DNA of 64,000 nucleotides from contig NZ_JAPHEH010000001.1 of assembly GCF_029607905.1 (NCBI RefSeq), positions 2,323,530-2,387,529 on the forward strand. The letters run 5' to 3'. How positions within the stretch are numbered: the first letter of the stretch is position 1; each line of letters starts with the position of its first letter. This document shows positions 1 through 40,871 of the stretch, piece by piece. The notes under the pieces are model-generated. The model had not been told where the DNA came from. It did not search any database and saw nothing but the letters and a program-made list of their open reading frames with translations. The stretch is from Thiovibrio frasassiensis. GTDB taxonomy: Bacteria > Desulfobacterota > Desulfobulbia > Desulfobulbales > Desulfurivibrionaceae. A program made the translations under genes and the position numbers.

Positions 1-2
1 GC

Positions 3-332
3 AATTCCAACCACTTGCAACAGGTCCTGGTAAACCTGATGCTCAACGCGGTCCAGGCCATGCAACCCAACGGCCGTCTCGATCTGATCGTGGGGGCTGA
101 GCAAAAAGTGGCCCTGATCGTAGTGCGTGACACCGGGGCGGGCATCGCCCCCGAGGCCTTGAGCCATATCTTTGATCCGTTTTTCACCACCAAGAACGAG
201 GGAACCGGACTCGGTCTCTCCTTGAGCTACGCCATTGTCAAGGACCATGGCGGTGACATCGTGGTGGAGAGTGAACCCGGCAAGGGAACGACCTTCAGGC
301 TCACCTTCCCCCAATTGTCCTCGGAAGCCTGA
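3..332 (+). CDS. Histidine kinase, C-terminal fragment (HATPase domain)
   Basis: The gene enters from the left edge, so only the last ~109 residues are seen. They form the ATP-binding domain of a sensor histidine kinase: an N-box (NLMLNAVQAM), a G1 box (DTGAGI), an F-box (IFDPFFTTK) and a G2 box (GTGLGLSLSY). The sequence resembles the kinase domain of the intact kinase at 8243-9664, which suggests duplicated NtrB-like kinases flank this locus. The stop codon is one base from the ATG of the next gene, so the two are probably co-transcribed. Sensor domain, H-box and membrane segments lie outside the window, so the signal is unknown. Confidence 0.9.
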   Translation, partial: NSNHLQQVLVNLMLNAVQAMQPNGRLDLIVGAEQKVALIVVRDTGAGIAPEALSHIFDPFFTTKNEGTGLGLSLSYAIVKDHGGDIVVESEPGKGTTFRLTFPQLSSEA

Positions 333-333
333 A

Positions 334-2880
334 ATGAAGCTCCCCGCCAATCCCTTCTTGAGCACGACAAAAGGCGAAACCGCCTCATTTGCTTCCTCGT
401 TTCGTCTTTTCCGGCGGTTGCTTTCCCTGAACAACACGGTGCTTGAAAAGATCGGCCGCATGGAGGGGGCCCTGGCCGGAGAATATGTCTTTGACCGGAA
501 ATTTTTAAGCGAGGCTGTGGCCGAGTTGAATGAACTGGTGCGGGAGGTGGTCTCCTGCCTGGGCAGTCTGACCAACAACCGCTATCTGGTGCTCTATGAT
601 TGTTATGAGGAGATTGCCGGGAAACTTTCCGGCCTGGCTTTGGAATATGCCGGACCCTATGACCGGAGCCTTACCTTGGCCTATCCGCTGCTGAACAGCG
701 ATTTCGAGGAGCTGGTTGGGGGGAAGAACGCGGTCTTAAGCGAGATCCGCAACCGACTGCACCTGCGGACCCCGGACGGTTTTGCCATCACTGCTGCTGC
801 TTACCGTGGGTTCATGGAGGCAAACGGACTTTTTGCGGCCATTGATTCTATCTCTGCGGGCACGGCCTCCAGTCGCGATCGTTCGGCGGCTATCAGCCGT
901 CTTATCGATCAGGCCCGTTTCCCGGAGGTGCTGGTTGCGGCGGTGAAAGACGGGTTGAAAGAATTGCTCAATCGGGCTGGCGGTCCGGCTCCCTTGGCGG
1001 TCCGCTCAAGCGGGTTGGGGGAGGATGCCGAAACCCGAAGCTTTGCCGGACAATTTCATTCGGTGCTTGCAGTGCGGCCCGAACTCTCTTCGGTGCTCGA
1101 AGCGTACCGTGCGGTGATCACCTCCCGCTTTTCGGTTGCGGCCCTGGAGTATCTTGGACCAGCGGCCACCAGCCGGGATCTTCCCATGGCTGCAGGGGTG
1201 CAGCCGATGATCCAGGGCAGGATTGCAGGAGTGACATACAGCCGCGTCCCGGAGTCGCCGGAGAAAAATCAACTGCTCATCACCGCCCTGCGCGGTTCGG
1301 CCCACGACCTGGTATCAGGACGGAGGCAGGCGGAACGTTTTGTCTTGAGCCGATTGTGGCCTTTTACCCCCTTGAGCAGCGAGCTTGTTGTGGAGGAGGA
1401 TTTTCCCTCAACCAGGAAAGCGCTCGATATGCTGCCCAGCGGCCTACGCCGTGGCTCGGCAACCCTTACCCCCAAGGAGCTGGCCAAGCTTGCCGAACAG
1501 GCGCTTTTGTTGGAAAAAACCTTCGGCGAAGCGCAGGATATCGAGTGGGCCTTGGCGGATGAACCGGTGATTCTTCAGAGCCGCGCTCTCTCCTTGCCCG
1601 CCAAACCACCGCCTCGGCCCGGGGAGCTGGCCGCCGAGCTGGCTGCCGCCACCCCGCTCATGTCCGGCAAAGGGCAGGTCGCCCAGCTCGGTATCGCGGC
1701 AGGAAGGGTGGTGCATGTGGATCAGAACACCGATCCGGAGCAATTCCCGGTGGGGGCCATTGCCGTGGCCCGTTTCCCCAGCCCGCAACTGAGCCCCATT
1801 GTCTGGCGGGCCGCCGCCATGATTACCGAGATCGGCGGCCCCACCGGACATCTGGCCACCATTGCCCGGGAATACCGGACTCCGGCCCTGTTCGGAACCG
1901 GCGAGGCGATCAACCTCCTTGCCGAGGGCGCTGAGGTGACGGTGGATGTGGAAAACAAACAGGTCTATCAGGGGATCATCGAGGGGCTGGTCCGTCTGCA
2001 TGCTGCAGAGCAGGATGACTACCGCGCCTCCCAGGAGCTGCGGATTCTGCGCCGGATCCTGCGCTGGGTGGCACCCATCACCCTGTCCGACCCAACCTCC
2101 CGTGATTTCAAGGCGGAAAACTGCCGCACCTTCCACGATATCCTCCGTTTTGCCCACGAAAAGGCCATTGACGCGCTGATCCATTTTCATGCCGACCGGA
2201 GCGGCTCCCAGGAGGAGTTGAGCCGGTCGGTGCGGCTGCCGATCCCGCTCAAGCTGCGGGTCATCGATCTGGGTTCGGGGCTGCGGCCGGAGGCACCGGC
2301 AACTGGCGCAATCAGTATGGAAATGCTGAACAGCAGGCCCCTGAACGCCATCCTCCATGGTTTTCTCAAGGATGACCAAGGTGGCAGGGAACCGGCGCCT
2401 CTCGGGTTGAGAGATATCCTGGCCGGGATCAGCAAACCGTTGGCCCTGCTTACCGGCCCTGCCTATCCCGGCGACAACCTGGGGATCATTGCCGAGCATT
2501 ACTGCAACCTCTGCCTGCGCCTGGGCTACCACCTCAATGTGGTGGACGCCTACATGTCGCCCGACCCGGACAACAATTACATCTACTTCCGGTTTGCCGG
2601 CGGCATGGCCGAGAAGGCCAAGCGCGAGTGGCGGGCCCGCTTGATCAGCGCCATCCTCTCCGGCCTCTACTTTAAGGTGGAACGCAAGGGCGACCTGGTG
2701 ATCGCCAAGGCCAGAAATCTCGATATTCCGAGGATGGAACGGGTGCTGGTTCGTCTCGGGGAGCTGATTTCTTTCACCCGGCAGCTTGATGTGCGGATGC
2801 GCGACGAAGCGGCCATCGAAGAGTTTTTTCAGCGTTTTCTCGTAAGCATCAAGCAGGAGCAGGATGGGGGGGAGGGGTAA
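334..2880 (+). CDS. PEP synthase/PPDK-like phosphotransferase, paralogue A
   Basis: 848 aa. The ATG at 334 is one base after the upstream stop; the frame is open back to 235, but that part overlaps the kinase. A helical N-terminal region (1-120) is followed by a PPDK-type ATP-grasp domain with GGKN (K131), VRSS (R224), DIEW (402-405) and QSR (Q415, R417). A swivel phospho-His domain follows, GGPTGHLATIARE, with His506. The PEP/pyruvate TIM barrel of PEP synthase is absent. Instead there is a ~270-residue C-terminal domain shared with the paralogues at 2864 and 10056, with HDILRFAHEK near 601 and an NNYIYFRFAGG stretch. Expected chemistry is ATP-dependent phosphorylation of the His and transfer to an unknown acceptor, as in rifampicin phosphotransferase architecture. 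The substrate is not deducible. Confidence 0.85.
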   Translation: MKLPANPFLSTTKGETASFASSFRLFRRLLSLNNTVLEKIGRMEGALAGEYVFDRKFLSEAVAELNELVREVVSCLGSLTNNRYLVLYDCYEEIAGKLSGLALEYAGPYDRSLTLAYPLLNSDFEELVGGKNAVLSEIRNRLHLRTPDGFAITAAAYRGFMEANGLFAAIDSISAGTASSRDRSAAISRLIDQARFPEVLVAAVKDGLKELLNRAGGPAPLAVRSSGLGEDAETRSFAGQFHSVLAVRPELSSVLEAYRAVITSRFSVAALEYLGPAATSRDLPMAAGVQPMIQGRIAGVTYSRVPESPEKNQLLITALRGSAHDLVSGRRQAERFVLSRLWPFTPLSSELVVEEDFPSTRKALDMLPSGLRRGSATLTPKELAKLAEQALLLEKTFGEAQDIEWALADEPVILQSRALSLPAKPPPRPGELAAELAAATPLMSGKGQVAQLGIAAGRVVHVDQNTDPEQFPVGAIAVARFPSPQLSPIVWRAAAMITEIGGPTGHLATIAREYRTPALFGTGEAINLLAEGAEVTVDVENKQVYQGIIEGLVRLHAAEQDDYRASQELRILRRILRWVAPITLSDPTSRDFKAENCRTFHDILRFAHEKAIDALIHFHADRSGSQEELSRSVRLPIPLKLRVIDLGSGLRPEAPATGAISMEMLNSRPLNAILHGFLKDDQGGREPAPLGLRDILAGISKPLALLTGPAYPGDNLGIIAEHYCNLCLRLGYHLNVVDAYMSPDPDNNYIYFRFAGGMAEKAKREWRARLISAILSGLYFKVERKGDLVIAKARNLDIPRMERVLVRLGELISFTRQLDVRMRDEAAIEEFFQRFLVSIKQEQDGGEG

Positions 2881-5497
2881 GGTGCGTCGCTGGCTCAGGA
2901 AACAGCTCGATCGACAGCTCGGCAAACTGCGCCAGGCTCGGCAACAGCGGAAAACGGATTCGCAACAGCTTCTCAAGGCGCGCTATCATGTGTTCCGCGC
3001 CCTCTTGGCCAGCAACAACCGGGCCGTGGACTGCCTTACCGAAATCAGTATCCATCTCCGCCTGCAGGGGGATTCCTTGGGCCTTGCCCAATTGATCCAC
3101 CGCCTGATCGAAGAAACCGCCGAAATGATCGCCCGGTTGGAAAACCTGGCCAGTGGCCGGTACCGGGGGCTGCAGGTCGCCCACCACGCCGTTGCCCAAC
3201 GGTTGCAGGCAACCCTTGCCGGTCTCACCTCCAGCGGGAATGTCCCCTCTGTCCTCCCCCTTGCCCAGATCCATTCAGGTCTGAAGGACCAAACCGGCAA
3301 CAAGGCTGCGGCTCTGGCCGAACTGCGCAAGAACGGTCTGCCGGTGCCGGATGGCTTTGTGATTACCCTGGCGGGGTGCCGTTTTTTCCTGGAACATGGT
3401 GGACTCTCGATGGAGCTGGTCCATCTTTTGGCCACGCAAGGGGCGGACAAAGAAAAAAATGTCTCCAGTGCCACCGCAGCGCAGGTAAAGGGGTTGATTA
3501 CCGGGGCGGTGATCCCGCCGGTCTTGGCCGAGGAAATCACGGAGGCGGCCCGGGTATTTTTTGAAAACGGGAAACCCTTGGCGGTGCGCAGCAGCAGTAT
3601 CAGCGAGGATGGCCGTCATCATTCCTTCGCCGGCCAGTTCAGTTCCGTGCTCAATGTCTGTGATGCAGCGCAGTTTCTTGAGGCATTCAAACAGGTGGTG
3701 GCCAGCAACTTCAATGCGCGCAGTCTGGCCTACCGCCTCAATGCCGGCCTGGACCCCCTCCGTTTCGACATGGCCGTTCTCTGTCTGGAGATGGTGGAGG
3801 CCCGCGCCGCCGGGGTTTTGTTGACCCGTTCCCCGCAAGAGCCGGAAAGCGGGCAGATGCTGATCAGCGCGGTGCCGGGCTTGGGAGAGGCTGCGGTCTC
3901 CGGCAGCGCCGCTACGGATCTTTATCTGGTGAATGCTGACGGCCAGGTGGATTGGACTCGCTCTACCATCGCCGACAAGGAGCGCTTGCTTGTCTGCGAA
4001 AAGGCAGGCGGCGTGGTCTGGCAAGAGCTGGCTGTGGAGGCGAGAAACCAGCCGGTCCTCGGTGAAGGGGAACTGCGGTCTTTGGCCGGCTGGGGCAGAG
4101 AACTGGAAAAGCGCGAAGGCATGCCCCTGGATCTGGAGTGGGCGGTGAATCCGGAGGGCGCTGTGGTCATCCTCCAGGTGCGTCCCATGACCACCATGGG
4201 TATCCAGACTGGCGACAACCGGGAGGAAAAATCCTCTCCGCTGCTGCAGGGGGTAATCTCCTCGGGCGGGCGGGCCAGCGGCCGGGTGCTCTTGGTGAAG
4301 AGCCGAAGGGATTTTGAGCATCTTCCCCAGGAACCGGTGGTCTTGGTCATGCACCAGAGCTTTGTCGAAGCGGCCAATCTCCTGGGACAGGTGGCGGCGG
4401 TGCTGGTGGAGTTGGGCAGTCCGGCAGACCATCTGGCCTGCGTGGCCCGGGAGCAGGAAACCCCCATGCTCTGCGGGATGCAAGAGGCGTCCGCCGTCTT
4501 GAGCGAGGGACAGTGGCTCACGGTGGACGGCAGTCACGGCAGGGTCTACAAGGCCACCGCCGATGAGATCGCTGCCACGGAAAAGCGCTGGCAAAATGGT
4601 CCGCCGCAGCCACACAGGATGCGGGTGCCCCTGCCCCCGTTGCACCGGGAGTTGCAGGAATTGGTGACGGTCCTGCATCTCACCGATGCTTACGGCCCCA
4701 CTTTTTCCATTCTTGAATGCAAATCGCTCCACGATATCGTCCGCTTTGTTCATGAAAAGGCGGTGCTGGCCATGTTCCACGCCGGCGACGAGTTGCTGGA
4801 GGAAAATTTCGGCGCCGTACATGCCATCGATGCACCGGTGCCCTTCTTTGTCAGCGTTATCGACATGGGCGGAGGACTGGCCCTTACCGGTCCGCTCCGG
4901 AGACGCATCCCGCCGGAAGCGGTGGTCTCCCGGCCCTTTCAGGCCCTTTGGCAAGGGATCACCACCCCAGGCCTGCACTGGGGGCCGCCGCCAGGCGGAG
5001 CGCCCATGGGTTCGGTGATGTCCTCCTTCCTCACCGACCAGAAGTCGGAACGGCCCATCGGCATGCCGAATTATGCCATGGTCAGCCGCGATTACTGCAA
5101 TATGAACGCCCGGATGGATTTTCATTTCATCATGATCGATGCGGTGGCATCGCTTGAGCCGCGGAGCAACCATATCAAATTCCGTTTCAAGGGCGGCGGC
5201 ACTTCTCTTGAGCGGCGACGCCGTCGCGCCCTGTGCATTGGCGAGATCTTTGAACAGCATGGTTTCTTTGTTGATGTCAAGGAGGATCTGGTCAACGCCT
5301 CGTTGCAGGGGGCCTCCAGGGAGGCCATCGAGGAAAAGCTTGTCATGGTTGGGAGGATTCTCGGCTTCACCCGCTTGCTTGACGCGGCCATGGGTACCGA
5401 CGCGATGATCCCGGCGGTGGCCCGCGCCTTTATGGAAGGAAATTATGCGCTTGTCGGCCTGACCGACAACGAAGAAACCGCGCAGGTGGCCGGATGA
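2864..5497 (+). CDS. PEP synthase/PPDK-like phosphotransferase, paralogue B
   Basis: 877 aa. The start overlaps the previous gene by 17 bp, with AGGAG about 7 bases before the ATG. The N-terminus is very basic (RRWLRKQLDRQ), then helical. The ATP-grasp part reads TGNKAAALAEL, so the usual GGKN is GNKA with K147 kept, followed by LAVRSSS, DLEW and LQVRP. The swivel motif is GSPADHLACVARE: the phospho-acceptor His is kept, but the preceding Gly-Gly-x-Thr is altered. The C-terminal domain repeats the family motifs HDIVRFVHEK, VIDMGGGL and NHIKFRFKGG. This is the most divergent of the three paralogues, perhaps with a different acceptor or reduced activity. Translationally coupled to both neighbours. 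Confidence 0.85.
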   Translation: MGGRGKVRRWLRKQLDRQLGKLRQARQQRKTDSQQLLKARYHVFRALLASNNRAVDCLTEISIHLRLQGDSLGLAQLIHRLIEETAEMIARLENLASGRYRGLQVAHHAVAQRLQATLAGLTSSGNVPSVLPLAQIHSGLKDQTGNKAAALAELRKNGLPVPDGFVITLAGCRFFLEHGGLSMELVHLLATQGADKEKNVSSATAAQVKGLITGAVIPPVLAEEITEAARVFFENGKPLAVRSSSISEDGRHHSFAGQFSSVLNVCDAAQFLEAFKQVVASNFNARSLAYRLNAGLDPLRFDMAVLCLEMVEARAAGVLLTRSPQEPESGQMLISAVPGLGEAAVSGSAATDLYLVNADGQVDWTRSTIADKERLLVCEKAGGVVWQELAVEARNQPVLGEGELRSLAGWGRELEKREGMPLDLEWAVNPEGAVVILQVRPMTTMGIQTGDNREEKSSPLLQGVISSGGRASGRVLLVKSRRDFEHLPQEPVVLVMHQSFVEAANLLGQVAAVLVELGSPADHLACVAREQETPMLCGMQEASAVLSEGQWLTVDGSHGRVYKATADEIAATEKRWQNGPPQPHRMRVPLPPLHRELQELVTVLHLTDAYGPTFSILECKSLHDIVRFVHEKAVLAMFHAGDELLEENFGAVHAIDAPVPFFVSVIDMGGGLALTGPLRRRIPPEAVVSRPFQALWQGITTPGLHWGPPPGGAPMGSVMSSFLTDQKSERPIGMPNYAMVSRDYCNMNARMDFHFIMIDAVASLEPRSNHIKFRFKGGGTSLERRRRRALCIGEIFEQHGFFVDVKEDLVNASLQGASREAIEEKLVMVGRILGFTRLLDAAMGTDAMIPAVARAFMEGNYALVGLTDNEETAQVAG

Positions 5498-7035
5498 GCA
5501 AGGAGATGTTGGTAGGTTTAGAGAAAATGCAAGCCCTGAAAGCACTGGGCGATCGCTATGGCTGCCCATGGGTGGAGTATCAGGAATCGGTGACCGGTCC
5601 CCAGTTGCTTTTGTGGAAACTCGACATGGCACAGCTCCGGGCGGAGGGCTGGTTTCCGCGCATTGTCAGTGATGGTCGGGCCACGATAATTGCCGATGTG
5701 CCCAGCCCCGCCCTGGCCGACAAGGTCCGTAAGACGCTCGGCGTGCAGGAGGTCGAGTTTCAGGTCACCCTGCCCGGAGATCTCACTCGGATCTTCGAGC
5801 ATAATCAGGATCTCAACCCCGGCTTTCCCGCTACAGCCGGACGGACCCCGCTGGCCAAGGTCCGTACCTATCTGGCAGGGCGGCGTTCCCTGTTTACCCA
5901 TTACCGGACTCTGCTGGCCAAGAGCCGTACCGGCCTGGCTTTTATCCGCACCGGTCTTTCCTTTGTCACCATCGGGCTGCTCTTTCTCCGTTTGGCTGGC
6001 GGCGGGTATTACCTGTTTTTGGAGATACCCCTTCTGATAAGCGGCCTGATCATGGTCTATGACGGCCTCAAGTGGTATCTGCCGGCCCGGGCGATTTATG
6101 CCGCCCTGCCTCCCTGCGTCGATACCGGCGCCACCGGGGGAACCAGCGTGCTTGAGGCATATAACGAGTACATTGCCCCGGAGTTTCGCCGCAGCCAGGT
6201 AGTGGAAGGAGCCGAGGCGCAACGGCAAGGGTGGACCTCTCTCTCGCCGGTGATGCGGCGCCGTTATCTGGCCAGCGACCGGACCGATCTGGCCGAAGAG
6301 CGGACGCTGCTTGCCTGTTTTCGGACCAGGATGGCCAAGGTCCGTACCGGATTGGCCTTTACCCGCACCGGCTTTGCTTTTATCAGCCTTGGCCTAGGTC
6401 TCTTGCGCCAATTTCAGGCTAGCCGTTGGCTGGTCTTGGATCTCGGCTTCATCGGCATCGGCGCGGTTATGGGTCTGGAAGGCTTTTTCTGGTATCTGCG
6501 CGGCCGGCGGGCAGGGGTGGAAGGGCAGAGGTCGGTGCGGCAAAAAACCGGCATGCCCACCATCTGGGATTATTTTTTCCCCCACAGCCATGCCATGCCC
6601 GGCGTTGTCATAAACCCCATGACCCTGCCGGTAAAAAGCTCTCATGCTCCAGGGATCTGGGCGACCACCGGGGTTGCCTTGGAGCGGACCGTCTTGGCCG
6701 AGCGCCGCAATGTTATGGCCCGTTTGCGGACAGTCATGGCTCGGGCTCGGACCGGTTTTGCCTTTATCCGCACCGGACTCAGCCTCTTTTCCATCGGCGT
6801 TGCCTTTATGCTTTTCTTTAACGACAGCGGCGGCTCCGGTTGGGAGGTTTTCAACTATCTGATGATCGCAAGCGGCCTCCTTTTGGTGACAGACGGCTTT
6901 GTCTGGAGTATTCCGGCCGAGCGGACCCGCCGCCAGTTTCCCTATTGTTACGGTGACATGGAGCTTCCCCTTCCCGATTACGGCATCCCAGCCCGATTCT
7001 GGAAAACCGTGGTGTTCAGCAATGATGCCGCTTGA
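5494..7035 (+). CDS. GspE-N/MshEN-like domain fused to three DUF202 membrane domains
   Basis: 513 aa; the ATG overlaps the previous stop (ATGA). Residues ~5-110 read like the N-terminal domain of type II secretion/type IV pilus ATPases (GspE-N, MshEN): a VEYQES start, a WFPRIVSDGRATIIADVPSP strand region and an LTRIF end. Three DUF202-like units follow, at about 117-200, 255-340 and 390-490. Each begins with Arg-Thr-rich helices (RTLLAKSRTGLAFIRTG, RTRMAKVRTGLAFTRTG, RTVMARARTGFAFIRTG) and continues with two hydrophobic helices. DUF202 is also the membrane domain of yeast Vtc proteins, which make and translocate polyphosphate. No secretion ATPase domain is present. Probably an inner-membrane protein with a cytosolic sensing or docking domain; function unknown. 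Confidence 0.75.
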   Translation: MSKEMLVGLEKMQALKALGDRYGCPWVEYQESVTGPQLLLWKLDMAQLRAEGWFPRIVSDGRATIIADVPSPALADKVRKTLGVQEVEFQVTLPGDLTRIFEHNQDLNPGFPATAGRTPLAKVRTYLAGRRSLFTHYRTLLAKSRTGLAFIRTGLSFVTIGLLFLRLAGGGYYLFLEIPLLISGLIMVYDGLKWYLPARAIYAALPPCVDTGATGGTSVLEAYNEYIAPEFRRSQVVEGAEAQRQGWTSLSPVMRRRYLASDRTDLAEERTLLACFRTRMAKVRTGLAFTRTGFAFISLGLGLLRQFQASRWLVLDLGFIGIGAVMGLEGFFWYLRGRRAGVEGQRSVRQKTGMPTIWDYFFPHSHAMPGVVINPMTLPVKSSHAPGIWATTGVALERTVLAERRNVMARLRTVMARARTGFAFIRTGLSLFSIGVAFMLFFNDSGGSGWEVFNYLMIASGLLLVTDGFVWSIPAERTRRQFPYCYGDMELPLPDYGIPARFWKTVVFSNDAA

Positions 7036-8236
7036 TCCCCAGACATTGATGCAGCCCTTCTCCGGGCTTGCCTTCTCCGGACCGGGGATGCTTACGGAAG
7101 CGGCGCAAGCGGCGGTATTGCGCGGAGTGCCGTTGGCCCGTATTCTTCATGCCGAATACGGGGTGACGCGGGAGGCGCTTCTTTCTGCCCTGCGAGAGCA
7201 TTACCGCTGTGGTTCCATCGAATATGACGAGCGTCTTCCCATCCCTCCTGAATTGCTCAACACTCTGACGGCCAGCCAACTTGGCATCAGCGACTGGTTT
7301 CCGGTGATTAAGGATGCTGACGGAACCATCGTTATTGCCGCTTGCAACCCAACGGATCCTGCCATGCGCTCGGAGGTCGAGCGGGTTTTTGGGCCGGCCC
7401 CCTACGAATTCCGGGTGGCTCTGCCGGATGACATCTCCTGGTATCTCCAGGATTTTCTCCATGCCAAGCCGGGTCTGCTCATCGGCACCGAACGCACCGG
7501 CCTGGCCTTCTGGCGCAATACCATGGCCCAATGGCGGACCCGGCTGGCCTGCTACCGAACCGATCTGGCCCGTGCTCGCACCGCCCTGGCTTTTGTCCGA
7601 GCGGGACTCGCCCTGGCCGCCATCTCCCGGACCCTCTCGAGCAGCCCAAGATATGCCGAGCATCCCATGTTTGCCTCTGTTGCCTTGACCATTGGCCTGC
7701 TGCTTCTTGTCGCCTCCCTGCCCACCTATCTCCGGGTGCGGCGTTCCCGGTTGACCCCGCCCAGGGATCAGACCTTGGTCGAGGTGACCGGTGCCACCTT
7801 GAGTTTCCTGGAAAATTACCAGAGCCTTGCGCAGGGCGGGCAGGGAAAGCGAAGCAAGGAAACCATGCTGGCGCGGCTCGGCGATCTGCTCGGCAACTAC
7901 TGCACCATATTGTACCCTTCGCCTCCCAGTCGGGAACGCACGCACCTGGCGCGGGAACGCAATGTCCTTGCCGCCCAGCGCACCATTGCCGGCTGTTACC
8001 GGACCATCTATGCCCGGGCCCGTACCGGTCTGGCCTTCATCCGCACCGGTGTCGCTTTTATGAGTATCGGGATCGGTTTGATCGGCTATTTCGGCCTGGG
8101 GTTCAAGACGCTTTTTGACGCAATCCTGATCCTGATCGGCTTGCTGATGATCATCGATGGCGGGCTCTGGTATCTGCCGGTACGCAAAGAACAGGCAGAG
8201 CTGCCGAGAACCCGGAGTGCCGCACTGGCGGGGTGA
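7022..8236 (+). CDS. MshEN-like domain fused to two DUF202 membrane domains
   Basis: 404 aa; overlaps the previous gene by 14 bp. The frame is open from 6899, but the ATG pair at 7022/7025 gives the natural N-terminus. Residues ~20-148 form a fuller GspE-N/MshEN-type domain: GVPLARILHAEYGVTREALL, then SIEYDERLPIPPELL, then WFPVIKDADGTIVIAACNP. Some MshEN domains bind c-di-GMP; whether this one does is not visible. DUF202-like units lie at about 155-245 and 300-395, each with the RTALAFVRAG or RTGLAFIRTG signature plus hydrophobic helices. It is a shorter paralogue of the upstream gene, so the locus encodes five DUF202 units in all. The kinase gene starts 6 bases downstream. Confidence 0.75.
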   Translation: MMPLDPQTLMQPFSGLAFSGPGMLTEAAQAAVLRGVPLARILHAEYGVTREALLSALREHYRCGSIEYDERLPIPPELLNTLTASQLGISDWFPVIKDADGTIVIAACNPTDPAMRSEVERVFGPAPYEFRVALPDDISWYLQDFLHAKPGLLIGTERTGLAFWRNTMAQWRTRLACYRTDLARARTALAFVRAGLALAAISRTLSSSPRYAEHPMFASVALTIGLLLLVASLPTYLRVRRSRLTPPRDQTLVEVTGATLSFLENYQSLAQGGQGKRSKETMLARLGDLLGNYCTILYPSPPSRERTHLARERNVLAAQRTIAGCYRTIYARARTGLAFIRTGVAFMSIGIGLIGYFGLGFKTLFDAILILIGLLMIIDGGLWYLPVRKEQAELPRTRSAALAG

Positions 8237-8242
8237 AGAGCA

Positions 8243-9664
8243 ATGAAAATAGAACATAAGATATATCTTTCCAACGCGGTCCATATCCTGCTCATCGTCC
8301 TGATCGGGATCTTCGCCCTGCAGAATCTCAATCAGATCCTGACCAAGTTCCGTTTTACCGTGATCGCCGAGGGGCTCAATGCCAATTTCTTGGAGATGCG
8401 GCTGGCGGAAAAGAATTATTTCCTCTATGGCGATGATACGGCCCTGGACAATATCAGAGCCAGGATCGAGCAGACCAGCGACACCCTGCTCCAGGTCCGG
8501 GGGGATATTACCCGCGCCGTGGGAGCGGAGAAGTACTCGGAACTCCAGGGGAATCTCCATGTGTATACCCAGTTGGTTGACTCCATCAGCAAGGCCCGCC
8601 ATCGGGATGCCGCGGCCCAGAAAAAGCTGCGCGAAGCTGGGCAGAAACTGAAAACCTTTTCCGAAAACATAACCACCCTGGAAAGCGATCGGATCGAGGC
8701 GATCATTGTCCGTTCCAAGAACATTCTCCTCTACTCTTTTTGGGCGGTGGTCCTCTTCGCCTTTCTCTTCAGCAATCTCATTGTTCGCAATATCGGTCAG
8801 TCGTTGCGCAAGGTTGTCGATCTGACCCGGGCGATTTCCAGGGGCAACTACCCGAAGATTGAGGAAAAACCCTCCAACGACGAGATGGGCGCGGTGATCA
8901 GCGCCATCAGCACCATGGCCGATGAACTCCACAATCGGGAAAAGGAGCTGGTCCAGTCCAAACGCCTCGCCTCCATCGGCATCCTGGTAGCCGGGGTGGC
9001 CCATGAGCTCAACAACCCCCTGAACAATATCTCCATGCTCGCCCAGACCTATGCCGAGGTATACGACGGGCTGGGCAAGGAGGACCGGATCGGCTTTATG
9101 GAGCGGGTCGATGAGGAGGTTGAGCGTTTGCGGGTGATCATCCGCAATCTCCTTGATTATGCCAAACCCAAGGAACAGCATCTGGCCAAGGCGACCACCA
9201 ATCAGGTGATTCAGAAGATCCTTGCCCTGGTTCAGAATATGCTCGATATCTCCAATATCAGGATCAAGCTGAGCCTGGCCGAGGATCTCCCGGATATCTA
9301 CATCGATGAACACCAGATCCAGCAGGTGCTGGTCAACATGGCCACCAATGCCATCCAGGCAATGGGCAAGGGGGGCGAGTTGCGCATCGCCTCCCGTTAT
9401 CTGCCGGAGAATGAGGAGATCGAGATCGAGATCGGCGACAACGGGAAGGGCATTGCCCCGGAGTTTCTCGATCATATCTTTGATCCTTTTTTTACCACCA
9501 AGGAAGAAAGCGGCACCGGCTTGGGCCTGTGGGTGAGCTACGGGATTATCAAAAACCACCAGGGGAACATCCGGGTGGCAAGTCAGGTCGGCGTCGGGAC
9601 AACATTTATTATAACCTTGCCCAGTTGCAAAAAGTTAAAGAGGTGTACGGATGGCGAAGCATAG
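8243..9664 (+). CDS. Membrane sensor histidine kinase (HAMP, NtrB-like)
   Basis: 473 aa. A first membrane helix (~12-28), a ~130-residue periplasmic helical sensor region and a second helix (~161-180) precede HAMP (~180-235). A dimerisation/H-box follows, GVAHELNNPL with phospho-acceptor His254. The HATPase domain has the N-box NMATNAIQAM, DNGKGI, FDPFFTTK and GTGLGL. The gene overlaps the receiver gene 9651-10019 by 14 bp, so the two are a cognate pair. The periplasmic part looks like an all-helical four-helix-bundle sensor, but no ligand can be named. It probably sets the activity or expression of the surrounding phosphotransferase locus (inference). Confidence 0.92.
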   Translation: MKIEHKIYLSNAVHILLIVLIGIFALQNLNQILTKFRFTVIAEGLNANFLEMRLAEKNYFLYGDDTALDNIRARIEQTSDTLLQVRGDITRAVGAEKYSELQGNLHVYTQLVDSISKARHRDAAAQKKLREAGQKLKTFSENITTLESDRIEAIIVRSKNILLYSFWAVVLFAFLFSNLIVRNIGQSLRKVVDLTRAISRGNYPKIEEKPSNDEMGAVISAISTMADELHNREKELVQSKRLASIGILVAGVAHELNNPLNNISMLAQTYAEVYDGLGKEDRIGFMERVDEEVERLRVIIRNLLDYAKPKEQHLAKATTNQVIQKILALVQNMLDISNIRIKLSLAEDLPDIYIDEHQIQQVLVNMATNAIQAMGKGGELRIASRYLPENEEIEIEIGDNGKGIAPEFLDHIFDPFFTTKEESGTGLGLWVSYGIIKNHQGNIRVASQVGVGTTFIITLPSCKKLKRCTDGEA

Positions 9665-10019
9665 CATTATGGTTATTGATGATGAGAAGATCGTCGGCGA
9701 TATGGCAAAACTCTCCTTCGAACAGGACGGTTACGAGGTGGAGACCTTCCTCAACGGCGAGTCTGCCCTGGAACGGTTGCAGGAGAAACGGTTCGACGTG
9801 GTGGTCACCGATCTGAAGATGAAGGGGGTGGATGGCCTTGAGGTGTTGCGTACCGTCAAGAAGCTCTATCCCGGCATCAAGGTGATCATGATCACCGCCT
9901 TCGCCAACCTGGATGTGGCCATTGAGGCCCTGCGGGACGATGTGCACGACTTCTTCCCCAAGCCGGTCAAGATCAAAGAGCTGAAGGCCTCCGTGCAAAG
10001 AGCTTTGGGGGAGGCATGA
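9651..10019 (+). CDS. Stand-alone response regulator receiver (CheY-like)
   Basis: 122 aa, receiver domain only. The acidic pair is D10/D11, the phospho-acceptor is D54 (VTDLKMKGVDG), and the switch residues are T82 and K104 (FFPKPVKIKEL). There is no DNA-binding or enzymatic output domain. Signalling must therefore go through protein contact, plausibly to one of the adjacent PEP-synthase-like or DUF202 proteins (inference), or through a further phosphorelay. Overlaps the kinase gene by 14 bp. An ordinary 36-bp gap separates it from the third phosphotransferase. Confidence 0.92.
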   Translation: MAKHSIMVIDDEKIVGDMAKLSFEQDGYEVETFLNGESALERLQEKRFDVVVTDLKMKGVDGLEVLRTVKKLYPGIKVIMITAFANLDVAIEALRDDVHDFFPKPVKIKELKASVQRALGEA

Positions 10020-10055
10020 GCCCGGTCGGGTAATGCCCCTGCGGAATCGCTGACC

Positions 10056-12626
10056 ATGCAAAAAAATTTTTTCCGCAGGGTTCGAGAGCTGTTCGGCCGC
10101 AACCATGGTGCGGCCTCCGATCTGGCCACGCGGTTCCGCGCCTTCCAAGCGGTGCTTGACGGCAACAACCGCACCCTGGAAGCCATGACCGAGATGGGGG
10201 AAAAGCTCGGCGGCGACTATCTTTTTGATGTCAATTACACCCGAAGCGCCTACGCTGAATTGTTTGCCGCGGTCTCCGATTCCCTGCGCAATTTTAATCT
10301 CCTCACCGACCAGCAATATCCCCAACTTGGGGAAATTCTGACCCGGATCGACAGGTTGGTGCAGCGGATGCTGACCGGCAGCGACTCCTTGTTTCAGGGG
10401 CAGGTGGTATTTTATCCGGAGATCACCTGGGATCTGGCCGAAGAGGTGGGCGGCAAGAACTATCACCTGGCCGAACTGGCGAACATCCTGCAGCTCAGGG
10501 TGCCCGAGGCTTTTGCCATCACCACCGCGGCCTTCCGCGATTTTATCCGCCATAACGGCTTGACCGAAAGGCTCGCAGGGCTTAGTTCGGCGGATAAAAC
10601 CACTCTGGAGAAACTGCGAACGGAAATCCTCGCCGGCACCTTTCCCGAGGATTTCTGCACCTCGCTTACGGCTGCTGTAGACAAGATGCGAAACCGACTC
10701 GGCAAAAAAGGGAAATTGGCGGTCCGCAGCAGCGCAGATGAGGAGGACGGCGATTTTTCCTTTGCCGGTCAGTTTGAGACGGTCCTCAATGTGGATTGTA
10801 CCGTTGCGGCGGTGCAGGGGGCCTATAAAAAGGTCCTGGCTAGTCTTTTCCAAGCCAACGCCATCAGCTACCAGCGTCAATTGGGCTATGATCTGGGGAA
10901 ATTGAAGATGGCGGTTGGCTGTGTGGCCATGATCGAAGCGAGGGCTAGCGGAGTCATCTATACGGCGGCGGCAGGCAAGGACCGGAGCAGTATGGCGATC
11001 AGCGCTGCCTGGGGCCTGGGCCCGGGGGTGGTAGATGGTCTGACCGATGCCGATCTGTATACCGTGGCCAAGGAGGAAGATCCCCGCCTGGTGGAGCAAC
11101 GTATCGGGGCCAAGGCGCAGATGGTGGTGAACTCCGGGGCGAGCGGCGTTAAGACGCAAGAAACCCCGGCTGCGTTGCGGGGGCAAGCGTGTCTCCGTGA
11201 AGTGGAGGTAATGGACTTGGCCAGGCATGCCCTGGCCATTGAACGGTACTACAAGATCCCCCAGGATATCGAATGGGCCATGGACAACACCGGGCGCTGC
11301 TACTTTCTCCAGGCCCGGAGCCTCCGGATGGACGAGCCAGCAGACGATGTTCCGGACAAAGGAATGGCGGCAGTGGCGGGGAGCTATCCGGTACTGCTCA
11401 AGAATAAAGGGATTGTGGTGCAACGGGGCATCAGTGCGGGCAAGGTTTATATCCTCCGCCATCTCGATGAACTGGAGCATATCCCCAAGGGCAGCATCCT
11501 GGTCGCCAGACATGATTCTCCACATTTTGTCCAGGCCATTCCCATCCTCAATGCCATCATCACCGACATCGGTGTGCCCACCAGCCATATGGCTTCGATT
11601 TGTCGGGAGTTCAATATCCCCACCGTGGTCAATACCGGCTCCGCCAGCCAAATCCTCCCGCATGGTCAGGCCATCACTCTGCAGGCCGGCGAGGAAGGGG
11701 ACATGGTTGTCTATGAGGGGTTTGTCCAGAGCCTGCTCCGGGAGGAGCGGCAGAAAGGGGCTAAGCTGCGGGAACTCTATGAGGTCCGGCGGCAAAAGTA
11801 CATCATGCGCTATATCGCGCCGCTCAATCTGGTGAATCCCCTTGAGCAGGAGTACACCCCGGAAAAATGCAAAACCGTGCATGATCTTGTCCGTTTCATG
11901 CATGAGAAATCGGTGCAGGCCCTGGTTGCCAATGCGAGCCGGACAAAGGGGATAGGCGGTTTTTTCAGCAGACAGAGCGCTGTGCACCGGCTTGTTTTGC
12001 CCATTCCAGTGCAGATCCAGGTGATTGATCTGGGAGGCGGCTTGTCCGGAAAGGTGGTGGGCAAGGAGATAGGGTTTGCAGAGGTAGGGTCGGTGCCTTT
12101 GCGGGCTGTGCTTGCCGGGATGCTTTTCCCTGGGGTCTGGCAGAATGAGGCAGCACCCCTGCGCGGCGCCGATCTGCTTTCCGGCATGACCAGAGCAGAG
12201 GATCTTACCCGTGAGGGGGCGGCTGTTTTGGAAAACGTGGCCCTGGCGAGTGCGGTATATGTGAACATGAGCCTGCGTTTTGGCTATCACTTTAACATGC
12301 TCGATTGTTACTGCAGCGACACCCCGCGCAACAATCATATCTATTTCCGTTTCGTGGGTGGGGCCGCGGCCATCACCAACCGCTCCCGGAGGATTGCCCT
12401 TATGGCCGAGGTCCTGGCTGAGCACGGCTTTGCCCTGAAAGCCAAGGGGGATCTTCTCGTCGGCCGCCTTTCCGGCCGGAGCAGGGAGGAGCTTGAGGGG
12501 ATTCTCGAACAGATCGGCCGACTGATCGGCTATACCCGACAACTCGATGCCCGCCTCGATTCCGACGAGATGGTGCACATCTTGGCCCAACGATTTTTAC
12601 AGGGAGATTACCGAGTCGCTCCGTGA
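10056..12626 (+). CDS. PEP synthase/PPDK-like phosphotransferase, paralogue C
   Basis: 856 aa; the ATG at 10056 has no clear Shine-Dalgarno. It has the same order as paralogue A: a helical N-terminal region, ATP-grasp (VGGKNYHLAEL, LAVRSSADEEDG, DIEWAMD, LQARS), a swivel domain with GVPTSHMASICRE carrying the phospho-His, then the family C-terminal domain with HDLVRFMHEK, VIDLGGGL, a GYHFNMLD stretch and NHIYFRFVGG. The ATP-grasp and swivel motifs match the PEP-synthase consensus best of the three. The PEP/pyruvate barrel is again missing. It is the last gene of the + strand run; the facing phosphatase ends 12 bp downstream. Confidence 0.85.
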   Translation: MQKNFFRRVRELFGRNHGAASDLATRFRAFQAVLDGNNRTLEAMTEMGEKLGGDYLFDVNYTRSAYAELFAAVSDSLRNFNLLTDQQYPQLGEILTRIDRLVQRMLTGSDSLFQGQVVFYPEITWDLAEEVGGKNYHLAELANILQLRVPEAFAITTAAFRDFIRHNGLTERLAGLSSADKTTLEKLRTEILAGTFPEDFCTSLTAAVDKMRNRLGKKGKLAVRSSADEEDGDFSFAGQFETVLNVDCTVAAVQGAYKKVLASLFQANAISYQRQLGYDLGKLKMAVGCVAMIEARASGVIYTAAAGKDRSSMAISAAWGLGPGVVDGLTDADLYTVAKEEDPRLVEQRIGAKAQMVVNSGASGVKTQETPAALRGQACLREVEVMDLARHALAIERYYKIPQDIEWAMDNTGRCYFLQARSLRMDEPADDVPDKGMAAVAGSYPVLLKNKGIVVQRGISAGKVYILRHLDELEHIPKGSILVARHDSPHFVQAIPILNAIITDIGVPTSHMASICREFNIPTVVNTGSASQILPHGQAITLQAGEEGDMVVYEGFVQSLLREERQKGAKLRELYEVRRQKYIMRYIAPLNLVNPLEQEYTPEKCKTVHDLVRFMHEKSVQALVANASRTKGIGGFFSRQSAVHRLVLPIPVQIQVIDLGGGLSGKVVGKEIGFAEVGSVPLRAVLAGMLFPGVWQNEAAPLRGADLLSGMTRAEDLTREGAAVLENVALASAVYVNMSLRFGYHFNMLDCYCSDTPRNNHIYFRFVGGAAAITNRSRRIALMAEVLAEHGFALKAKGDLLVGRLSGRSREELEGILEQIGRLIGYTRQLDARLDSDEMVHILAQRFLQGDYRVAP

Positions 12627-12638
12627 GTTGGCGAACGG

Positions 12639-13295
12639 TCAGGCTGCGTGATGGAAGTGCAGTCCCGGCAACTCAACGGCGGTGAGCAGGTTGCCGTAGA
12701 CCGCCCCGGTGTCAATACCAATGCGGAATGGGGTGAGCAGCGGGGTGGCAAAGGGGGTATGACCGAAGATGACCCTTTTGCCGTAATCCCGTTCCTGGGA
12801 AAGAAAGGGTTCCCGCACCTCGCAGAGGTCGGAGATGTCCTGTTCGGCCAGGGGCTGGTCGTGGCGCAAGCCGGCATGCACGAAGATGTACTCCTCCGTC
12901 TGCCAATGGGGCAGCAGCGAGGCAAGAAAGTCCCGGTGTTCTTTCGGCATGAAAGCGAGGGAGGCAAGGGCGCTGAGACTGGCTCCCCCGTAACTTTCCA
13001 AGGTGTTTTCCAAACCGAGCCGCCGCAGGTAGGGGAGCAGGGCCTGATCACCGCTCCGGTGGTATTCCAGCAGTAAATATTCGTGGTTCCCCATGAGCGG
13101 GATCACCCGCACCCCGTCACCCCGCAATGCGCAGAGCTGCTCAAGCACTCCCTTGCTGTCGGGGCCGCGATCCAGGTAATCGCCGAGAAAGACCAGGGTG
13201 TCGTGGGCACGGTCGAAAGGGAGTCGGTTCATTAGCAGTGCAAGCTTGGCTGCGCAGCCGTGGATGTCGCCGATGGCGAAAATCTTACCGCTCAT
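12639..13295 (-). CDS. PPP-family metallophosphoesterase (serine/threonine phosphatase-like)
   Basis: 218 aa. The three metal-binding motifs of the PPP superfamily are intact: GDIHG (9-13), GDYLDRG (38-44) and GNHE (69-72), then HAGLR and GHTP with the remaining His ligands. The size matches bacterial PrpA/PrpE-like and ApaH-like phosphatases; the substrate could be a phosphoprotein or a dinucleoside polyphosphate. AAGGGAAG lies before the ATG. It converges with the PEP-synthase-like gene. A role in reversing a phosphorylation made by that locus is attractive but is only an inference from position. Confidence 0.9.
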   Translation of the reverse strand: MSGKIFAIGDIHGCAAKLALLMNRLPFDRAHDTLVFLGDYLDRGPDSKGVLEQLCALRGDGVRVIPLMGNHEYLLLEYHRSGDQALLPYLRRLGLENTLESYGGASLSALASLAFMPKEHRDFLASLLPHWQTEEYIFVHAGLRHDQPLAEQDISDLCEVREPFLSQERDYGKRVIFGHTPFATPLLTPFRIGIDTGAVYGNLLTAVELPGLHFHHAA

Positions 13296-17551: not shown

Positions 17552-18172
17552 ATGCATCCACGGAGGCAAGAATTTCTTTCTGCCGGGCGGGGCAGGGGCT
17601 CCAGAAAACATGCGGGGATGATCTGTCTTGTTTTTCTGCTGCTTCTCTTAAGCGCCTGTTCCAGACAGGAGCTTCTTGTTCGGCACGGAGGGGGACCAAT
17701 GGCAACAACTACCACGATCCAGGATGTTATCGATCAACAAGCGGCTTTGGGCAAAAAGCCCAACCGGCTCATCACGGAAAAAAGCCCCTACCTTCTCCAG
17801 CATGCCTTCAACCCGGTTGCCTGGTTTCCCTGGGGAGAGGAGGCCTTTGCCCTGGCCCGCACAGAAAACAAGCCGATTTTTCTTTCCATTGGCTATTCCA
17901 CCTGTCACTGGTGCCACGTCATGGCCCATGAATCCTTTGAAGACCCGGATGTGGCCCGGCTGCTCAACGAATATTTTGTCTGCATTAAGGTGGATCGCGA
18001 GGAGCGGCCTGATCTTGATCAGATCTACATGGCGGCCGTCCAGGCTTTGACCGGTCATGGCGGCTGGCCGATGTCGGTGTTTCTTACCCCTGATCTGCAC
18101 CCTTTTTACGGCGGGACCTATTTCCCCCCCCGAGGCGCGGCAAGGCATGCCCGGTTTTGTTCAGGTGGTTGA
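17552..18172 (+). CDS. DUF255/YyaL thioredoxin-fold lipoprotein, N-terminal part (frameshifted)
   Basis: 206 codons before an early stop. The start has an Arg/Lys-rich leader and a lipoprotein signal with lipobox LSAC; an internal ATG at 17618 would leave the signal without positive charge. The DUF255 core follows: [19 protein letters not shown], the redox motif STCHWCHVM, then [20 protein letters not shown]. At the end of GGTYFPP the reading frame leaves the family sequence at a run of eight C (18124-18131) and stops at 18172. Removing one C joins it to the next feature. DUF255 proteins are spermatogenesis-associated 20 homologues, usually ~600-700 aa and cytosolic, so an exported lipoprotein form is unusual. 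Confidence 0.75.
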
Positions 18173-19877
18173 GGCGGTCAACGATGCCTGGCGCATCCGG
18201 CCTGAGAAGATTCTTGAGTCCGCGGCCAATATCACCGACCATCTCCGGCACAAGGCCGCCGATTCCGGATCGGCAAGGATCGAGGCGGGGGTTTTCACCA
18301 AGGGGTTCCAGCAGATTGCCTCGGAGTACGATGCCGAGTTTGGCGGGTTTGGCCGGGCGCCCAAGTTCCCCCGACCCGTGCTGTTTAACTTTTTGTTGCG
18401 TCATGCCGCCCGTACCGGCGAGTCCCAGGCCCTGGACATGACTCTGGTAACCCTGCGCAAGATGGCGGCGGGCGGAATGTACGACCATCTGGGCGGCGGC
18501 TTTCATCGTTATTCGGTGGATGCTCAATGGCGGGTGCCCCATTTTGAAAAGATGCTCTACGATCAGGCCCAGCTCGCGGTCAGTTATCTCGAGGCCTTCC
18601 AGGTGGGACAGGATCCTTTTTATGCCAATGTCGCCCAGGATATTCTTGATTATGTCCTGAGGGACATGACCAGCCCGGAAGGGGGTTTTTATTCGGCGGA
18701 GGATGCCGACAGCATCCAGGCGGGCAACCCAAAGATCCACGGTGAAGGGTTGTTTTATCTCTGGACACAAGACGAGATCGTTTCCATCCTCGGCAAGGAG
18801 CATGGGGAGATTTTTGCTTACCATTACGGAGTTCTTGAGGCAGGCAATGCGCTGAACGACCCTCAGGAGGAGTTCAACGGAAAAAATATTCTCTATGTCG
18901 CGCACCCTCTAGCCGAAACCGCTGCCCGTTTCCGCATGCCGGAGGAGGAATTATCCCGGCTGCTTGAACGCGCCCGGAATAAACTCCAGGCAGTACGCGA
19001 GCAAAGACCAAGGCCCCATCGGGACGACAAGGTTATCACCTCCTGGAACGGCCACATGATCAGTGCCCTTGCCCGTGCTTCCCAGGTGTTGGGCGAAAAG
19101 CGTTACCTGGCTGCAGCCGAACGGGCGGCGACCTTTATCCGGGACAGACTGTATCAGTCCGAGTCAGGCACGCTTTTCCGCCGCTATCGTGACGGGGAGG
19201 CTGCCCTGGCCGGACAGCTCGATGATTATGCCTTCTTGGTCAACGGGTTGCTCGACCTCTATGAGGCTTCCTTCGACATTGTCTGGCTGCAACGTGCCAT
19301 TGCCTTGACGGAAAAGCAGATTGCGTTGTTTGCCGATGGGGAGCAGGGCGGCTTTTTTGAAACCTCCGGGGCGGATCATTCCGTCCTGGTCCGCCTCAAG
19401 GGTGATTATGACGGGGCCGAGCCCACGGGCAACTCGGTCAGTGCCCTCAATCTTCTTCGCCTTGCCTGGATAACCGGCAATGAAGCGTGGCTGAAGCGAG
19501 CCGGGGCGACCATCGAGGCCTTTGGCGAGCGGCTGAACGATTATCCTCCCATCCTGCCGCAGATGCTTGTGGCTTATGGCTTTCAAGGGAGTATGCATCG
19601 TCAGCTCGTGGTTGCCGGCAAGCTGGGACGACCCGATACCGAGATCATGCTGTCCATGATCCGCAAACGGTTTTTACCCGAAAAGATTGTTCTCTTGGCC
19701 GATGGCGGGGCAGGCCAGGAATTTCTCGGCCGCTATCAGCCGTTTTTGGCCGAATTGTCTGCGCAGGAGAACAGAACCGCAGTCTATCTCTGTGAGAACT
19801 TCAGTTGCCAGCTGCCCACTTCAGATCTGGCGGAATTGGCTAACCGACTTGAGGCGATGGGAAATGCGCCCCGATAG
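18147..19877 (+). CDS. DUF255/YyaL protein, C-terminal part (six-hairpin domain, frameshifted)
   Basis: Family sequence resumes right after the C8 run in the +1-shifted frame ([20 protein letters not shown], from ~18132). The ATG given here is simply the first one inside it; the same frame is open from 18057, but that upstream part is not family-like. The rest is the (alpha/alpha)6-type glycosidase-like domain of DUF255 proteins: [61 protein letters not shown]. With the upstream part it would give one protein of ~775 residues. Either a sequencing/assembly indel or a true inactivating or slippage-corrected frameshift explains the break. Confidence 0.75.
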
Positions 19878-39073: not shown

Positions 39074-39257
39074 ACGGTATCTCCGCCATGTGCAGGGTGG
39101 ACTTTTTAGGGTGCTTGATAAGCACAGAGGTTCACTTTAGGTGATCGTGTCGAATTTTGCCAGTGAAACCCGCCAGGGAGTGCGTTGTCAAGTGACATCG
39201 CGGGCAAGAAAGAAGAATGATGCAAAGTTTCGTTGAATATGCTAAATAATCCTTTCC

Positions 39258-39406
39258 AAGGTGCTCCATGGGAGCTTAAACGGGAACCCCGTGTAAATCG
39301 GGGACGGGCCCGCCGCTGTAACCGGGGACGCGTTTCGCAATCACGCCACTGTTTTTAGAATGGGAAGGCGCGAAACAAGGATGAACCGGAAGTCAGAAGA
39401 CCTGCC
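39258..39406 (+). ncRNA. Cobalamin riboswitch 1
   Basis: All main elements are in order: an AAGGTGC start, GGGAA, the CCGCCGCTGTAA-type conserved core following a C-rich arm, and a terminal B12 box AAGTCAGAAGACCTGCC. It lies upstream of the Gate-domain membrane protein. The terminator hairpin at 39480-39516 is its expression platform. Confidence 0.92.
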
Positions 39407-39479
39407 TTGACAAATAATACTGCATGATCGCCGTGGACAAGTGGTCGTGTTATGATCTGCCGTGGATGAAACAGGGCCT

Positions 39480-39516
39480 CCCCGGATCGAGAAAATCGGT
39501 CCGGGGATTTTTTTTT
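39480..39516 (+). terminator. Rho-independent terminator of riboswitch 1, with embedded Shine-Dalgarno
   Basis: CCCCGGATCGA (39480-39490), loop GAAAA, TCGGTCCGGGG (39496-39506), then A and nine T (39508-39516). The T run is directly followed by the ATG at 39517. The GGGGA of the 3' arm is the only Shine-Dalgarno candidate, so the hairpin would both end transcription and hide the ribosome-binding site. Confidence 0.85.
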
Positions 39517-40491: not shown

Positions 40492-40576
40492 GGGTGGAAC
40501 GAGGAATTACTCTGGAGTTGGAGGGAAATTGCCGGTTTTTAAGTTTTCAACTTAGTTGTACACGTGTTGTGTCAAT

Positions 40577-40745
40577 AAGGCGCCCATTGGGCTTAAAAGG
40601 GAATCCCGTGCAAATCGGGAACGGTCCCGCCACTGTAATTTCCTCCTGCTTCCACCGGGAAGCGGGAAAGTCGGTTCTCAGGCCACTGTCCTCTGTCATG
40701 GGGCGGGAAGGCGAACCGGTTTTGGGAAAAGTCAGGAAACCTGCC
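40577..40745 (+). ncRNA. Cobalamin riboswitch 2
   Basis: An AAGGCGCCCATTGGGCTT start, GGGAATCCCGTGCAAATC, the conserved CCCGCCACTGTAA core and the B12 box AAGTCAGGAAACCTGCC. It lies 127 bp before cbiK. No terminator as clear as that of riboswitch 1 was found downstream; a short GGAAAGGTTTCC hairpin and a T7 run before the ATG may form the platform, possibly at the translational level. Confidence 0.93.
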
Positions 40746-40871
40746 TCGTTGATTGTTTTGCTGCCGCCTTCGAGGAAAGGTTTCCGGCCTTGCGCGAAAA
40801 TTACCACAGCAGGGGGATGCCGTCTTTTTTTGAAGGAAATGTATTAACCTTTTGAAAGATGGAGAAAAAAG

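Follow-up and report, generated by a model that had tools for sequence, protein, structure and literature searches.

The window analysed here is a stretch of 64,000 nucleotides from the genome of Thiovibrio frasassiensis (G000:C1:2323530-2387529; genome size 2.84 Mb, estimated to be 95% complete), whose closest relatives, in a scan of species carrying the protein domain described below, are Desulfurivibrio/Desulfobulbaceae metagenome bins. Its left end is occupied by genes arranged around paralogues that resemble phosphoenolpyruvate (PEP) synthase and share a new C-terminal domain (C-domain). We refer to these proteins as SW enzymes and summarize here their sequence features, their genomic context and their possible function.

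Three SW genes lie in the window on the forward strand: SWb (334-2880), SWc (2864-5497) and SWd (10056-12626), which encode proteins of 848, 877 and 856 amino acids and fall into clades B, C and D of the family tree, respectively. Their C-domains are encoded at approximately 2044-2877, 4637-5494 and 11790-12623. Between SWc and SWd, on the same strand, lie two DUF202 polyproteins, both with an N-terminal MshEN-type domain. The first (5494-7035) has three DUF202 units with 5-6 Arg heptads per unit, and the second (7022-8236; 7022 is its best start) has two units. They are followed by HK2 (8243-9664), a membrane histidine kinase with a helical sensor region and HAMP, HisKA and HATPase domains, and by RR2 (9651-10019), a receiver-only response regulator. 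A further kinase, HK1, reaches into the window with its 3' end (1-332, forward strand); its gene begins upstream, at L006:11351, and contains HisKA and HATPase domains and a HAMP match below the cut-off. On the reverse strand, convergent to SWd, lies a PPP-type (ApaH/PrpA-like) metallophosphatase gene (12639-13295), which presumably belongs to the system.

The six junctions from SWb to SWd are spaced by -17, -4, -14, +6, -14 and +36 bp, and the array continues upstream of the window on the same strand with genes for a TauE/SafE transporter (PF01925), a PF09608 exported membrane protein, a fourth SW enzyme (SWa), a receiver-only regulator (RR1) and HK1. The run as a whole has 12 genes in the same orientation, spaced by -17 to +61 bp; the window holds the larger part of it, and parts of it recur across two bacterial phyla. 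An earlier, sequence-only reading had described three PEP-synthase-like paralogues with intact ATP-grasp and swivel His residues, five DUF202 units in two polyproteins, and a kinase-receiver pair, with overlaps at most junctions. Open reading frames and Pfam matches bear out this inventory, and four of the six junctions do overlap, by 4-17 bp; the MshEN-type domain on both DUF202 proteins and the continuation upstream of the window had been overlooked.

Domain architecture of the SW enzymes

The four SW paralogues share a common architecture, consisting of an N-terminal helical region (~130 amino acids), which matches no family, an ATP-grasp domain, a swivel domain and the C-domain of ~280 amino acids. 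In SWb, SWc and SWd, the Pfam families PPDK_N and PEP-utilizers were matched with E-values of 8e-55 to 1.5e-74 and 2.9e-13 to 1.9e-16, respectively. The swivel is located centrally (residues ~476-573), which leaves the new domain at the C-terminus. SW residues were mapped by alignment onto what we take to be the catalytic positions of PPDK. Every paralogue of the locus retains its ATP-grasp residues and its swivel His (His523 in SWc), and the swivel His, Arg and Glu are invariant in 233/233 full-length SW sequences. The equivalents of PPDK K22, R92, E323, Q335 and R337 are retained in at least 230 of these 233, and that of D321 is Asp in 219 and Glu in 14. By these catalytic residues, SW fits the PPDK/PEPS/RPH superfamily of phospho-His dikinases, and it very probably keeps the first half-reaction, the transfer from ATP to phospho-His.

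Like PEP synthase (pyruvate, water dikinase), SW combines ATP-grasp and swivel-His domains, and phosphoenolpyruvate synthase is its best NCBIfam match over these two parts. It differs by its additional N-terminal helical region and by the new domain that replaces the PEP/pyruvate barrel, for which the C-terminal part of SW gave no Pfam match. Against the PEP synthase models TIGR01418 and NF005057, SW proteins reach 208.7-302.6 and 196.3-288.1 bits, far below the curated cut-offs of 598 and 739.75, with only the first half aligned, whereas the complete PEP synthase encoded elsewhere in the genome (C1:2537371) scores 1181 and 1161 bits. The possibility that the paralogues simply match PEP synthase, which the sequence-only reading had itself raised, was thus not borne out. 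Judged by domain content, SW proteins are not PEP synthases but carry the C-domain in place of the pyruvate barrel.

The C-domain contains eight residues that are invariant in 233/233 sequences (H623, D624, H630, H754, N769, G777, R788 and D840 in P0003 numbering), and its 73-row alignment has 20 invariant columns. A model built from these 73 relatives (pLDDT 84.9, pTM 0.80) shows a mixed alpha/beta fold. The sequence has no convincing match in Pfam, NCBIfam, PHROGs or PDB sequences, and the model gave no Foldseek match below E 0.001 in two libraries, the best VIA hit reaching Z 6.4 over 64 residues. Likenesses to PcyA/RCCR, McsB/arginine kinase and ferredoxin-like folds were at noise level and were not used. 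Going by sequence and predicted fold, we regard the C-domain as apparently new, with a well-defined invariant site, and the acceptor site of SW, as far as it can be predicted, is likewise new. Similar to RPH and HpeHI/PpsAB (PMC4844700, PMC12167813), SW would route the phosphoryl group from ATP through the swivel His to a third, non-barrel acceptor domain. The arrangement differs from RPH, which has the swivel at its C-terminus and the antibiotic-binding domain in the middle, and the acceptor domain of SW is unrelated by sequence to those of RPH and HpeHI, with no match in the fold search. Four longer SW proteins (~1060-1080 amino acids; L190, L191, L192 and L193) have an additional C-terminal extension of ~200 residues that resembles, by eye, a concanavalin/LamG-type beta-sandwich.

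Conserved gene neighbourhoods and the DUF202 module

A scan of 84,980 species identified 187 coding stretches for the C-domain, and the best 80 of these are almost all found in Desulfobacterota, Nitrospirota and Thermodesulfobacteria. In the phylum of T. frasassiensis, the domain is present in 110 of 296 sampled genomes. Neighbourhoods fall into two modules, TauE-PF09608-SWa-RR(-HK-SWb-SWc) and DUF202x3-DUF202x2-HK-RR-SWd. Neighbours within three genes were counted for 77 SW genes from the phylum sample, which is biased towards strong matches, so that the percentages do not hold for the phylum at large: 81% have a receiver-only gene (background 8.7%), 55% have TauE (6%) and 60% have PF09608/c15 (0%). 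For SW genes in position A, directly after PF09608, the receiver is the next gene in 74 of 77 cases. TauE-PF09608-SW-receiver is thus a conserved core in Desulfobacterota, and its further neighbours are signalling, stress-protein and phosphatase genes. Homologues of the PPP-type phosphatase directly adjoin an SW gene in 29/29 instances, a count made on loci chosen around SW genes, from which free-standing copies elsewhere would escape. In a tree of 102 SW proteins, the context labels A, B, C and D require 2, 3, 1 and 2 changes, compared with 25, 14, 14 and 24 for shuffled labels. Because these clades are near-perfect, positions A-D are stable orthologous positions, and the DUF202-linked SWd forms one clade across phyla.

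The neighbourhood survey that the sequence-only reading had proposed was run, and the DUF202 module (3+2 units, kinase, receiver and SWd) recurs in other genomes, in Nitrospirota and Desulfobulbales. In Nitrospirota, TauE-PF09608 closely precedes it. DUF202 forms the membrane part of the VTC complex, and each unit of the window polyproteins carries the DUF202 signature, as do YidH and the VTC membrane domain. In contrast to those proteins, the window proteins have an MshEN-type domain in front of units fused 3+2, and the units bear 3-4 extra Arg-Thr heptads on one long helix. DUF202 (PF02656) scores 56.2 and 31.5 bits in the two polyproteins (cut-off 23.4); in a search of the whole genome, four of the five units scored above the cut-off and the fifth reached 22.5 bits, and these five were the only DUF202 units found. 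Each unit starts with Arg at every seventh residue, in runs of at least four among 81 homologues and of 5-6 in the window proteins. These runs number 199 in the 81 homologues, compared with 2.15 expected in shuffled sequences. The 3+2 architecture is strictly conserved, since 37 of 40 homologues of the first polyprotein have three runs and 41 of 41 homologues of the second have two. Pfam matches the MshEN domain in 31/31 proteins of the two-unit family and gives a weak match in the three-unit one. The predicted structure of the two-unit polyprotein (pLDDT 74.6) confirms the MshEN fold (Z 12.7 to MshE, 5htl), followed by two helices of ~52 residues, each running into a further hydrophobic helix; a search with the DUF202 model for the VTC fold returned MshEN structures and generic helices only.

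At three loci (L130, L143 and L155), DUF202 genes occur with a kinase and a receiver (the full pair in L130 and L155) near a TauE-PF09608-SW-receiver core, with no SWd adjacent, which suggests that such DUF202 genes can serve the SW enzyme of the nearby core. Degenerate universal-stress-protein (Usp) genes regularly border the core, before TauE or after the receiver (L006:5944-6534 and loci L110-L115 and L130-L152). Other SW genes are found in different surroundings. Those in L109:4926-12780, L021 and L022 differ strongly from the TauE core: there, SW adjoins a small linker protein and a VgrG-like gene of type VI secretion. A separate SW branch (L167, L175 and L176) has dCache-like/HAMP sensors as neighbours, and the sensors of L167 and L176 carry a sigma-54 AAA+ activator domain at their end, an NtrC-like arrangement anchored in the membrane.

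Upstream of the Usp/TauE operon start, a sigma-54-like promoter matching at least 10 of 11 bases was found in 34 of 136 regions, compared with 0.3% of shuffled regions. The site of this type in T. frasassiensis, TGGCATGGTTAGTGCA, matches 9 of 11 bases, and an NtrC-type regulator and kinase are encoded upstream of the operon. Together, these promoter matches and the regulator-kinase pair make it probable that expression of the operon is sigma-54 dependent.

Elsewhere in the window, a thioredoxin-domain gene (YyaL/DUF255-like, by eye; 17552-19877, forward strand) falls into two overlapping open reading frames around eight consecutive C near 18125-18133. In a relative (L016:15556-18039), a single frame encodes 827 amino acids, and either an error in sequencing the homopolymer or a recent frameshift probably accounts for the split. 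Two cobalamin riboswitches (39242-39423 and 40561-40762, forward strand; 121 and 90 bits) lie 5' of the successive open reading frames 39424-40491 and 40872-41861.

A paralogous branch and the Desulfovibrio nitrate cluster

Another branch of SW is associated with a dual-specificity phosphatase (DSP), and in one genome (L219) SW and DSP are fused in a single gene of 1259 amino acids. In L222, and reversed in L220, the gene order is TauE-x-PtxB-HK-RR(120 aa)-SW-DSP, and the SW proteins of L222 and L220 carry the new C-domain (E 2.9e-72 and 2.5e-70). This order is identical to that of the 'nitrate cluster' DVU0251-DVU0245 of Desulfovibrio vulgaris, whose genes encode TauE, a hypothetical protein, PtxB, a histidine kinase, a 119-aa receiver, a PPDK_N/PEP-utilizers protein and a DSP (PMC4001038). 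When any one of its TauE, hypothetical, receiver or SW-type genes was disrupted by insertion, growth became indifferent to 100 mM nitrate, with no gain of nitrite resistance, and mutants of the D. alaskensis cluster (Dde_0597-0605) likewise gained fitness (PMC4001038). The authors proposed a leaky thiosulfate transporter, based on unpublished weak growth of mutants on thiosulfate, and mutants of strain G20 were mildly sick on thiosulfate (PMC4001038). Because transporter, receiver and SW mutants share the same phenotype, the genetics suggest that TauE, receiver and SW act in one pathway in Desulfovibrio, although polar effects of the insertions are possible.

Similar to the nitrate cluster, the window locus with its upstream genes combines TauE, a histidine kinase, a receiver-only regulator and an ATP-grasp/PEP-utilizers protein. 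A PtxB-like binding protein and a DSP are encoded in the nitrate cluster but were not found in the window locus, nor was a DSP found in the rest of the T. frasassiensis genome. In their place, the window locus has PF09608, and it also contains the DUF202 3+2 module, two kinase/receiver pairs and four SW genes. The nitrate cluster appears to be a paralogous branch and is not the same operon as the window locus. The sequence-only reading had stated that no system with this set had been described. This claim holds for the exact gene set, of which we found no description in the literature searched, but it is only partly right, since the nitrate cluster is a genetically studied relative. By analogy, this relative points to anion transport, not polymer synthesis.

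Possible role in oxyanion transport

Taken together, these analyses describe a real and widely conserved system with a new acceptor domain within the phospho-His dikinase superfamily and a new kind of DUF202 fusion. We propose, with a probability of roughly 0.4, that the locus controls a TauE/SafE-type oxyanion transporter through phospho-His. SW would use ATP to phosphorylate its own swivel His, as in the first half-reaction of PEP synthase and RPH, and would pass the phosphoryl group on at its C-terminal acceptor domain. The receiver-only regulators, charged by the neighbouring membrane histidine kinases, may set SW activity, and the adjoining phosphatases (PPP-type at the window locus, DSP-type and once SW-fused in the paralogous branch) would reverse the product. 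The outcome would switch or energise the TauE and PF09608 transporter pair, with control presumably directed from SW to the transporter. The locus-specific module of two MshEN-DUF202 polyproteins, HK2, RR2 and SWd could add a membrane scaffold, at which the Arg-heptad helices may dock SW or receiver proteins. There is a precedent for regulatory kinase activity in an enzyme derived from PPDK, because VadK (Rv1127c) was reported to be an autophosphorylating regulatory histidine kinase (PMC13400623), although VadK has no described TauE, receiver or DUF202 partners and acts on the methylcitrate cycle. More speculatively, and doubtful at present, the locus may follow a principle for inorganic anions resembling that of a phosphotransferase system (PTS), in which a PEP-synthase-derived enzyme phosphorylates a protein partner (TauE/PF09608 or a receiver) and thereby gates or energises oxyanion transport. 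Several such enzymes would then dock at the membrane on the DUF202 3+2 Arg-ladder module, a new kind of platform.

Several points weigh against transporter control by SW. No acceptor of SW emerged from the analysis, and the literature searched holds no biochemistry on any SW protein. Some SW genes have no TauE neighbour. The thiosulfate link rests on the authors' unpublished data, and fitness of the DSP mutant was low in D. vulgaris but high in D. alaskensis (PMC4001038). DVU0246, at 744 amino acids, is somewhat short and was likened to SW by domain description and synteny. Finally, the invariant residues of the C-domain, rich in His, Asp and Arg, resemble the active site of an enzyme, for which a small-molecule substrate is equally natural. 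A small acceptor bound by the C-domain is accordingly the main rival explanation: TauE would import an organic anion, SW would phosphorylate it at the C-domain, trapping or activating it, and the receivers would tune flux only. In most characterised relatives (PEP synthase, PPDK, RPH and HpeHI/PpsAB; PMC4844700, PMC12167813), the third domain does bind a small acceptor, and the eight absolutely invariant polar or glycine residues and 20 invariant columns are typical of a catalytic pocket. We nevertheless consider this explanation possible but rather unlikely, as no metabolic gene lies beside the core, one substrate hardly explains four paralogues of the same operon with shared C-domain invariants, and transport or its regulation explains nitrate resistance on loss with no need for a new metabolite. 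Improbable, in our estimate, is a phosphorelay in which the SW phospho-His donates its phosphoryl group to the Asp of a neighbouring receiver, or takes it back, and so feeds ATP/AMP status into two-component signalling. The receiver-only gene is the most constant SW neighbour and these receivers lack an output domain, but receivers are usually charged from HisKA or Hpt helices, each pair already has a kinase nearby, and a relay leaves the invariant C-domain without a role.

The remaining explanations carry far less weight. The MshEN fold of the polyproteins, supported by Pfam and by the structure comparison, would suit c-di-GMP receptors that switch the system; however, the published 24-residue motif (tandem RLGxx..LxxxLxxQ; PMC5013675) occurs in 0/81 homologues, strict or relaxed, and we rejected c-di-GMP control as very unlikely. 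Less credible still is membrane-linked synthesis of a phosphate polymer such as polyphosphate. The sequence-only reading had suggested a membrane-linked phosphorylation or phosphate-polymer pathway, of which the membrane-linked unit proved to be conserved and its ATP-to-His residues retained, while the polymer did not find support. The kinship of DUF202 with VTC and the conserved Arg ladders, which could bind a polyanion, speak for it, but DUF202 alone is insufficient: neither the VTC domain (PF09359) nor PPK1 was found in the genome, an absence that is not absolute at an estimated completeness of 95%, PPK2 appears only as a 24-bit fragment match, the locus has no CYTH or SPX domain, and most TauE-SW-receiver cores have no DUF202. 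Least plausible of all, and close to untenable, is that SW proteins are ordinary PEP synthase paralogues, for which the best NCBIfam match speaks and against which stand the low, half-length scores, the missing barrel and the full enzyme encoded elsewhere.

The SW enzymes thus constitute a large, hitherto unnamed family that joins ATP-grasp/phospho-His chemistry with a transporter and two-component receivers, and an ordered, conserved context is now available for two domains of unknown function, DUF202 and PF09608. If SW does control oxyanion entry, this would explain the nitrate-resistance mutants of Desulfovibrio, which matter for oil fields where souring is treated with nitrate, and would reveal a new way for phospho-histidine chemistry to govern transport.

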